Positions 15,055 through 17,117 of a DNA stretch of 34,421 nt are shown piece after piece (position 1 is the stretch's first letter; each line of letters begins with the position of its first letter). Below the pieces are notes generated by a model. It was given only the letters and a program-made list of their open reading frames with translations. It did not search any database and was not told where the DNA came from. Made by a program: the position numbers and the translations under genes. Origin of the DNA: Nitrospira sp. (GTDB taxonomy: Bacteria > Nitrospirota > Nitrospiria > Nitrospirales > Nitrospiraceae); contig JADYYH010000033.1 in NCBI GenBank assembly GCA_020853775.1, positions 1 to 34,421 of the forward strand. The letters run 5' to 3'.

Positions 15055-15083
15055 AAAAGGCCGCCTATATAGGCGGCCTTTTT
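15055..15083. terminator. bidirectional rho-independent terminator
   Basis: GGCCGCC and GGCGGCC flank TATATA (15059-15078), with AAAA on the left and TTTTT on the right. It therefore ends ahcY on the plus strand and the 15126-16085 gene on the minus strand. Confidence 0.93.
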
Positions 15084-15125: not shown

Positions 15126-16085
15126 TTAGATCGTAATTGTAGCCTCGATTCGTCGTTTGAGTTTCTCACACAAATCTTGTTCATCTCTCCAAACAACGTG
15201 GTTGTACTGTCGCGTGTCAAAATGTGTTTGATTCAATTCGTTTTCTCGGCACGTCCAGATGACCGGGATACCTAGCCCAAGAGCATACCCAGCCTCAAAA
15301 TAAACGCCTCCTCGATGACCCGTGAAGTCAGCCACAAGAAATCTGCTTTTCCTAATTTCCGCAATGATGGCATCGCATATTTTTTCGTTATGCTCTTTTA
15401 AATCCATACGGAGAGACTTATATCCGAGACCATCACAAGCTTTTCTAAAACCATCTTCCCAGGCCTTATCAAGGTTACGGTCGAACCACATAGCAACAAA
15501 CGCTTGCCTGGAATCTTTCCCAGTTACAGTGCGCTCCAACTCTGCAATTCGGTTCAGCCCGCGCGCAGTGAGCACGGTTTCAGTTGTGCCCTGAACCGGA
15601 TCGATTCGTATCCAGCCAGCCTCTTGTAATGCATTCACGATAAATTCGAAAGAATCCTTATGCTCTGCAAAAACCACAGGACAATCCATGCTCGGATCCA
15701 ACCAAATTCTGTCGCCCAACTGTGCTGAAAGTCTGTAAAGGTTCTTCAACGCACGATCAAGCCTCTCGCTAATTGTTCGCGGGAAGCGATCTCTAACAAT
15801 TTCATCTACAGTAGTTACAGGCGTGTCGAATGCCCTATTAGGGGACTGCTGACTCAGGATTCTAATCCTTGAGTCGCCACGCAACGTCCTTTCTCTCAGA
15901 TATGCAGCCACTTTGGCCCTATCCTGTTTGTTGGTAGCAGCGGCTTCTAAATTAGTTGCGGCCTCCTGAGTGATCGAATAGTTTCCGCATCGTGAACAAT
16001 CATACTCCATCACATCGTTAGTCCCAACTTGTCGTCCGTCGCTACACTTCATGCCGCAAATCTTGCAAGTGACTGAGTCGTTCAT
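15126..16085 (-). CDS. zinc-ribbon protein with nucleoside 2-deoxyribosyltransferase-like C-terminal domain
   Basis: A 319-residue protein without a recognised name. The N-terminus is a probable zinc ribbon (C7, C10, C30, C33). The middle holds a region that reads like a winged helix (FEFIVNALQEAGWIRIDP...TARGLNRIAELE, about 140-185). From about 193 to the end lies a domain of the nucleoside deoxyribosyltransferase/TIR-like fold: FVAMWFD opening strand, then VADFTG (D253), then GGVYFEAGYALGLGIPVIWTC, in which E264 is the likely catalytic glutamate. ATG 16085 is favoured because GGAGGT sits 7 bases upstream; an ATG at 16100 overlaps that site. Base composition is visibly more AT-rich than the metK/ahcY and rTCA genes, it is flanked by a dead IS, and it stands alone, all suggesting transfer. 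Defence or nucleotide-stress function is inference. Confidence 0.75.
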   Translation of the reverse strand: MNDSVTCKICGMKCSDGRQVGTNDVMEYDCSRCGNYSITQEAATNLEAAATNKQDRAKVAAYLRERTLRGDSRIRILSQQSPNRAFDTPVTTVDEIVRDRFPRTISERLDRALKNLYRLSAQLGDRIWLDPSMDCPVVFAEHKDSFEFIVNALQEAGWIRIDPVQGTTETVLTARGLNRIAELERTVTGKDSRQAFVAMWFDRNLDKAWEDGFRKACDGLGYKSLRMDLKEHNEKICDAIIAEIRKSRFLVADFTGHRGGVYFEAGYALGLGIPVIWTCRENELNQTHFDTRQYNHVVWRDEQDLCEKLKRRIEATITI

Positions 16086-16126
16086 TTGGCTGACCTCCAT
16101 ATAGCTGCCATGACCATACCGAATAC

Positions 16127-16280: not shown

Positions 16281-17117
16281 TAGACCCTATCTCAAAATGG
16301 TTGTGTCGCTAGAAAATGTCTCTATAATGCGCCCGCATGTGGCGTCTGCGCGATGACCAATGGGAACAGATTCGGAAGCATTTTCCCGAGGAACGTATCC
16401 CCGAAGGTTGCCCGGGCCGCAAGCCGGTGTCGGCTCGCACCGTGTTAGAAGCGGTCCTGTGGATTCTGAACACGGGCGCACAGTGGCACATGCTGCCGCA
16501 GTGCTACCCCAATTACAAACGGTGCATCGCCGCTTTCAGCAGTGGTGCGGACGTGAGGTGCTACGCGAGATCCTCACCCAGTTGGCGAATACGTTGCGCG
16601 ACGAAGGCGCGATCGACGAGCGCGAGAGCTTCATCAACGCGACGTTTGCGGCGGCGAAGGGCGGGGGCGACGCAGTGGGGCTCACGAAACGCGGCAAAGG
16701 TGTGAAGATCCTGGCAATTGTGGATCGCCATGGGTTGCCGCTCTCGGTCAGCACGCACGCGGCCAATTATCATGAAGTCACGTTGGTGCAGTTGAGTTTC
16801 GACTTCTACATGCTGGAGGCTAAGCCGGAGCATCTCATCGGTGATCGGGCGTAAAAGAGCGATGGACGCGATGCCGACCTCAAGGAGGACCGCGTCAACA
16901 TGATCGCACCGCATCGATCCACGCGGAAACTGAAAACTCAGGACGGCCGCCATCTCCGACGGTATCAACACTGCTGGCTGGTGAAGCGATTCTTTGCATG
17001 GCTCCAATGGAAGCGGCCGCGGCTGGTTCGTTGGGAATATTACGCCACTAACTTCCTGGGTTTTGCGCAACTCGTATCCATGACCATGCTGCTCGAGCAA
17101 TTTTGAGAGAGGTTCTA
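16281..17117 (+). mobile_element. degenerate IS5-family insertion sequence
   Basis: About 837 bases bounded by imperfect terminal inverted repeats. The left end TAGACCCTATCTCAAAAT pairs with the right end near 17100-17117 (17 of 21 positions in the aligned core). It contains one broken transposase reading on the plus strand. Size and TIR style match the small IS5-family (IS427/IS1031-like) elements. A clear target duplication is not visible. Confidence 0.8.
16337..17106 (+). pseudogene. broken IS5-family transposase
   Basis: The transposase is spread over frames. The N-terminal part starts at ATG 16337 (WRLRDDQWEQIRKHFPEER...GAQWHMLP). A frameshift near 16517-16525 moves the homologous reading to the frame containing TVHRRFQQWCGREVLREI. 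An in-frame TAA after HLIGDRA (about 16852) interrupts it, and it resumes as DADLKEDRVNMIAPHRS...YYATNFLGFAQL to 17106. The first catalytic Asp region reads INATFAAAKGG, so the Asp appears replaced by Asn. No slippery A-run is at the shift, so programmed frameshifting is unlikely and the copy is dead. Confidence 0.85.

Follow-up and report, generated by a model that had tools for sequence, protein, structure and literature searches.

Our comparative analysis revealed that the N-terminal half of a 319-aa protein (P0001), encoded in a 34,421-nucleotide stretch of a Nitrospira sp. contig (JADYYH010000033.1; the whole stretch that was analysed, hereafter the window), is exchanged among several kinds of output domains; neither Pfam nor NCBIfam has a model that covers this half in P0001. 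We consider it fairly probable that the protein itself is a stand-alone, patchily inherited anti-phage protein of the abortive-infection type, encoded by an AT-rich gene, in which a sensor is joined to a nucleotide-cleaving effector of the TIR/nucleoside 2-deoxyribosyltransferase (NDT) fold. A reading of the same gene made from the letters alone (the sequence-only reading) had proposed a sensor-plus-effector layout, and the domain make-up was as claimed; the main point that it missed is that the N-terminal half is a shared, exchangeable putative sensor to which immune effectors of several kinds are joined.

The minus-strand open reading frame, counted with its stop codon, contains no internal stops, and its features are collected in Table 1. 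It shares 74% identity with its closest homologue (L002), for which pS is 0.615 and pN 0.145, and the dN/dS value against this homologue is approximately 0.20 in the N-terminal half and 0.05 in the C-terminal half. Because of this homology at low dN/dS and at least 79 further homologues, the frame is, as judged by sequence comparison, a genuine gene under purifying selection rather than a chance frame. The gene stands alone and convergent with the gene for S-adenosylhomocysteine hydrolase (SAHH), the solitary position having been recognized earlier; its neighbours in the window are MetK, SAHH, an insertion sequence (IS), and a radical SAM gene. No defence gene adjoins it, and no CD-NTase gene lies beside it, the immediate neighbours being SAHH and radical SAM. 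The AT-richer composition that had been noted was borne out by a GC content of 46.9% versus 55.7% for the window, an equally low value occurring in 2 of 670 sliding windows. PHROG 16139 matched P0001 over nearly its full length (1e-72), and NCBIfam gave no match to the protein. Neither P0001 nor the family profile found a relative in sequence searches of the PDB, and a fold comparison was therefore needed.

Table 1. Features of the 319-aa gene and its surroundings, in window coordinates
Feature	Position	Strand	Basis
Coding sequence of the ribbon / winged-helix / TIR-NDT-fold protein	15126..16085	-	Translation, homologues, dN/dS ~0.13 vs L002
Shine-Dalgarno GGAGG, upstream of ATG	16094..16098	-	Sequence
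C4 zinc-ribbon-like segment, residues 7-34 (C7, C10, C30, C33)	15984..16067	-	Sequence; beta hairpins in model
Winged-helix domain, residues 104-190	15516..15776	-	N-half model vs MarR/MepR
TIR/NDT-fold putative N-glycosidase domain, residues 191-319	15129..15515	-	Foldseek + VIA-align; PADLOC match
Phe196 codon, at NDT/DNPH1 active-site Tyr position	15498..15500	-	Phe in 68/68
Asp238 codon, second putative active-site acid	15372..15374	-	65/68; 26 residues before E264
Glu264 codon, putative catalytic glutamate	15294..15296	-	Invariant 68/68; in GVYFEAG
Terminator hairpin, common to convergent SAHH gene and 319-aa gene	15055..15082	.	Sequence
Decayed IS4/5-type insertion sequence	16281..17117	+	Inverted repeats, PF13340/PF01609 fragments, absent in L002

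An AlphaFold2 model of the full protein, built from a 68-sequence input, reached a pLDDT of 91.5, and the N-terminal half predicted separately scored 91.4 with a pTM of 0.88. In this half, the two CXXC pairs (C7-x-x-C10 and C30-x-x-C33) and the winged-helix-like middle were found where they had been described, the latter aligning with MarR/MepR at a Z of 10.3 (rmsd 2.8 over 82 residues). For residues 1-100, the PDB gave no match other than winged helices, which is no evidence of a new fold. Both CXXC pairs are kept in 19 of 68 homologues and absent in 49, the latter typically carrying CPIWG...SPRAGG at the equivalent places. On the tree of the C-terminal domain, approximately seven switches from one state to the other are required, and at least four of these fall on well-supported branches. 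The ribbon segment thus seems to have been retained while its metal site was repeatedly lost, and with 49 of 68 homologues lacking the Cys pairs, zinc-dependent sensing is weakened as an explanation and the metal does not appear to be essential. Mean column entropy was 2.7-2.8 bits in the N-terminal half versus 1.3 bits in the C-terminal half, marking, in the aligned sequences, a fast-evolving and a slow-evolving part of the same protein.

A profile of residues 1-190 was searched in approximately 940 genomes drawn from four phylum-level samples. The loci examined contained 66 frames with the N-terminal module, 41 of which also carried an NDT/TIR-like domain; part of the remaining 25 were fragments or broken copies. 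Among the fusions, the module was followed by a canonical TIR domain (TIR_2; L094), by Schlafen-AlbA_2 (SLFN_AlbA_2; L185), by DUF4062 (L195, 1255-2589, +), and, in two genomes from the genus of the window, by GGDEF with an unassigned C-terminal region (L096, 238-1977, -; L097, 1492-3240, +). The same neighbouring gene accompanies both GGDEF fusions, which may represent a branch of the system that makes a signal. Two HEPN families were also found behind the module: DUF4145 in plasmid-borne genes (L196 and L197), and Ymh, preceded by a doubled ribbon, in P0002 (L085, 5890-7590, +) on a Paenibacillus peoriae plasmid, immediately adjacent to a gene pair for a Pycsar cyclase and effector. On an Agrobacterium vaccinii plasmid, an unannotated frame joins the module to a CAP12/Pycsar TIR domain (CAP12-PCTIR_TIR; L198, 5992-6936, +); the gene adjoining it also has a TIR domain and is annotated separately. 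The plasmid query was a loose consensus from the alignment rather than a natural sequence, and the fusions were re-checked with the N-module HMM and Pfam. Taken at the level of these profile matches, the module precedes at least six further kinds of killing or signalling domain besides the NDT/TIR-like one and has been swapped among unrelated effector domains, mostly ones known from immunity. No earlier description of this ribbon/winged-helix module was found in the open-access literature.

Effectors built on the TIR and NDT folds are common in immune systems. We tentatively suggest, at slightly less than even confidence, that the ribbon/winged-helix half is a previously undefined infection-sensing module of one fold, answering to a common phage (or nucleic-acid) cue, with a repeatedly lost metal site and at least eight outputs (NDT/TIR-like, TIR, CAP12-type TIR, DUF4062, two HEPN families, AlbA_2, and GGDEF), that is, a general bacterial immune receptor domain. 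With such a sensor in front of at least eight output domains, the identification of one trigger would make many orphan effectors testable through half-swaps.

TIR and NDT folds are also found in metabolic enzymes, which weighs against an assignment to defence. Foldseek and VIA-align placed the C-terminal domain closest to human DNPH1 (Z 15.5) and MilB (14.9), followed by Chroococcidiopsis NDT (CtNDT, 13.9), SPARTA TIR-APAZ (13.8), and TIR-STING (13.4), in agreement with the deoxyribosyltransferase/TIR-like fold that had been proposed from its motifs. PADLOC matched the core of the domain to the CBASS TIR effector PDLC00733 (E 3.2e-12). PF05014 (nucleoside 2-deoxyribosyltransferase) scored 25.1 bits on P0001, under its curated cut-off of 28.8, and none of 61 genomes contained a PF05014 protein above that cut-off, the superfamily members found being sub-threshold; the Pfam TIR families and PF13271 (DUF4062) gave no match to P0001. 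The VADFTG and YFEAG motifs occupy residues 251-256 and 262-266, with E264 numbered correctly in the earlier reading. The 68 sequences show no variation at D253, R258, E264, or any residue of the QAFVAMWF strand.

The residue equivalences given here come from motif, spacing, and alignment offsets rather than from coordinates. By motif and spacing, Glu264 is equivalent to E88 of CtNDT and E104 of DNPH1, and the spacing of 26 residues between D238 and E264 equals that between D62 and E88 of CtNDT, residues named in the titles of the CtNDT entries. Phe196 is paired with Y7 of CtNDT and Y24 of human DNPH1 in the ungapped starts of the VIA structural alignments. The domain has a TIR/flavodoxin-like fold with a catalytic-type Glu, and of the NDT/DNPH1 set it holds the Glu and the Asp, with Phe196 in place of the active-site Tyr of strand 1. 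Tyr is found at this position in NDTs, DNPH1, and Thoeris ThsB, whereas Phe or Ala is usual in other TIRs (PMC11204291). Judging from the alignments, the protein combines an NDT-type Asp with a TIR-type Phe; the Asp, a trait of NDT and DNPH1 and not of TIRs, could point to a (deoxy)nucleotide as the substrate, and the Phe, given the usual Phe/Ala of TIR NADases, leads us to lean towards an NADase, such that NAD+ would be slightly favoured over other nucleotides. The protein is a defined single-gene candidate for defence (Glu264, Asp238, and Phe196) that bridges the NDT/DNPH1 nucleotide hydrolases and the TIR NADases. In two congeners, the C-terminal domain was observed with other partners, behind a different N-terminal region in L083 (934-1917) and with an extra C-terminal region in L084 (1042-1824), and these partner changes suggest that the effector half has been exchanged as well.

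In the mechanism that we infer, from defence function and trigger through oligomerization and substrate to cell death, the N-terminal half (C4 ribbon and MarR-like winged helix) would serve as a fast-evolving sensor and oligomerization module that, in the resting cell, holds the C-terminal domain apart or inactively arranged. Binding of a phage-derived trigger would cause protomers to assemble, and assembly would complete the C-terminal active sites, with Glu264 acting as nucleophile or catalytic acid together with Asp238 and Phe196. The N-glycosidic bond of NAD+ (or, less likely, of a nucleoside monophosphate) would then be broken, and the falling nucleotide pool would stop or kill the cell ahead of phage release. 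The closest mechanistic precedent, by analogy of plan, comes from Swarozyc, in which a TIR-like NADase domain (DUF4062) is accompanied by an HTH/winged auxiliary domain; the latter recognizes the portal of the phage by binding, forms an assembly around it, and thereby switches on the loss of NAD+ (PMC13174449, preprint 2026). Both are single chains that unite a TIR/NDT-fold domain with an HTH/winged sensor, and both are patchy and defence-associated; the C-terminal domain of the window protein, however, is not DUF4062, and its sensor is N-terminal and includes a ribbon. Trigger-induced assembly with cleavage of NAD+ or another nucleotide is proposed here because the plan matches that of Swarozyc and because the N-terminal module is itself fused to DUF4062 in L195. 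A possible trigger, by analogy with the winged domain of Swarozyc, is a multimeric protein of the phage, and another is a nucleic acid; since the Swarozyc domain binds protein, a winged helix need not imply DNA sensing.

Other known systems resemble the protein in part. With NDT, DNPH1, and MilB (the PF05014 fold), it shares the fold (Z 14-15), the invariant Glu, and the Asp 26 residues earlier, but it is sub-cut-off in Pfam, carries an invariant Phe for the Tyr, and is fused to a sensor. With the TIR NADases (SPARTA TIR-APAZ, TIR-STING, and SARM1) and PDLC00733, it has in common the fold, the catalytic-type Glu, and Phe at the Tyr position, whereas the window gene has no Pfam TIR match and no Ago, STING, or CD-NTase partner alongside. 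The swapping principle is that of AbiJ-NTD, an N-terminal domain swapped among HEPN, TIR, NDT, and nuclease effectors (PMC3710099), but AbiJ-NTD was described as mostly alpha-helical and the present module consists of a ribbon and a winged helix.

The surroundings of the homologues recurrently link the family to restriction-modification (RM) and other defence genes, and a defence association was found in RM operons, in SIR2 and SEFIR/TIR neighbours, and on prophages and plasmids. HsdS models dominated a PADLOC tally that covered half of the neighbours, and HsdS density was therefore chosen as the quantitative test. The 50 genomes with homologues contained 80 HsdS-like genes in 189.7 Mb, the loci totalling 0.80 Mb. 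Genome coordinates were assigned to each locus from its contig range or from the position of the gene, the match being inferred for L010 and L066. HsdS lay within 8 kb in 7 of the 50 loci (L010, L024, L034, L037, L044, L052, and L066) versus 0.34 expected (approximately 20-fold; Poisson p 7e-8), a figure that overstates independence because the HsdS loci are concentrated in one related group plus L066. Five of the seven (L024, L034, L037, L044, and L052) belong to Chloroflexota and are 50-65% identical, and the linkage thus represents at least two lineages, including the separate L066, rather than seven independent events. Some homologues lie within type I operons in the order hsdS-effector-hsdR. 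In L046, and similarly in L059, the effector lies between a type III methyltransferase gene and a UvrD helicase gene, with overlapping ends on both sides. Further operon-like partners include a type ISP/IIG enzyme (L065), MmeI (L017), and SIR2_2 with PDC-S25 (L009); a Leptospira plasmid homologue has SEFIR and methyltransferase neighbours, and an Aliarcobacter plasmid homologue has TIR genes and a TRAFs-binding protein nearby. As a separate observation, L046, L056, and L059 share a recurring set of overlapping genes for a large uncharacterized protein (1047 aa in L046), a type III methyltransferase, the effector, and a UvrD-like helicase, which may be an unrecognised composite defence system. 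Counting against a defence role, the window gene and many homologues (L005, L013, L040, L041, L053, and L055) stand alone beside unrelated housekeeping genes, though the homologues as a whole are not confined to such loci.

A rival reading takes the protein as a transcription factor or metabolic enzyme, in which the winged helix binds DNA and the C-terminal domain binds or hydrolyses a nucleotide ligand in salvage or regulation near SAHH. The MarR-like winged helix and the DNPH1/NDT fold agree with such a role, and a housekeeping or regulatory function would also fit the retention of the gene in L002, where it again lies beside SAHH at the corresponding site. We nevertheless judge it distinctly improbable, given that the gene is patchy in the genus (1 of 25 genomes), AT-rich, and variable in its neighbours, and that exchange of the N-terminal module among TIR, HEPN, DUF4062, AlbA_2, and GGDEF would be unexpected for a metabolic regulator. 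The same exchange bears on a guard or accessory function in RM, whereby the protein would sense RM activity or its inhibition, like PrrC and RloC, and kill the cell when RM is disabled. Several homologues do lie inside operons of type I, III, and ISP systems in which genes overlap, but most members, the window's included, are not beside RM genes, and a single module before many different effectors argues for a sensor of its own, which makes the guard function unlikely.

Signal synthesis is known for several TIR-fold defence domains, and SIR2 or TIR genes occur near some homologues (L009 and L089), which would suit a messenger system in which the C-terminal domain, like ThsB, produces a cyclic-ADPR-type signal that acts on a separate effector. 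Homologues are usually solitary, however, with no constant partner effector, and residue 196 is Phe rather than the Tyr of the ThsB type (PMC11204291), leaving the messenger system with a low probability. The pairing of an NDT-like domain with a winged helix also recalls the type II retrons, for which NDT effectors with winged helices have been described (PMC12548924), but the window gene has no reverse transcriptase (RT) or msr-msd partner. RVT_1 adjoined the homologue in none of 50 loci, and across the 50 genomes an RT match fell inside the locus only in L031 (a broken copy of an intron-type RT that occurs repeatedly) and L024 (at a distance of several kb); identity as a retron effector, highly improbable, was rejected. 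The reading that we prefer remains an anti-phage protein composed of a sensor and a TIR/NDT-fold effector.

The distribution of the family is patchy over many phyla, and its members are carried by prophages and plasmids; of the 25 genomes of the genus, the window's alone had a full-length homologue. In 56 of 61 loci, the frame had a higher AT content than the flanking DNA (median 9 points, p 6e-12). In IMG/VR, 23 viral or prophage contigs held a homologue with both halves in all of them, and tblastn against the phage collection gave short C-domain matches only. The IS next to the window gene is indeed dead: two inverted repeats of 18 bp (16281-16298 and 17100-17117) enclose fragments of an IS4/5-type transposase (PF13340 and, weakly, PF01609) in broken frames. 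The sequence-only reading had taken this element as support for acquisition of the gene by transfer, and this was not supported here: the IS has its own ends, the gene occupies the corresponding site in L002 (SAHH 85% identical) with no IS present, and the congener L112 has a related IS in the same interval without the effector gene. Recent transfer of the gene together with the IS was thereby ruled out, whereas the anatomy and, broadly, the function proposed in that reading stood. The arrangements in L002 and L112 indicate that the gene is an older resident that was patchily lost or gained and that the IS was a separate event; its acquisition in Nitrospirota was probably early, with patchy retention thereafter. 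The interval from SAHH to the radical SAM gene spans 170-1251 bp in congeners with both flanks visible, versus approximately 2.4 kb in the window.
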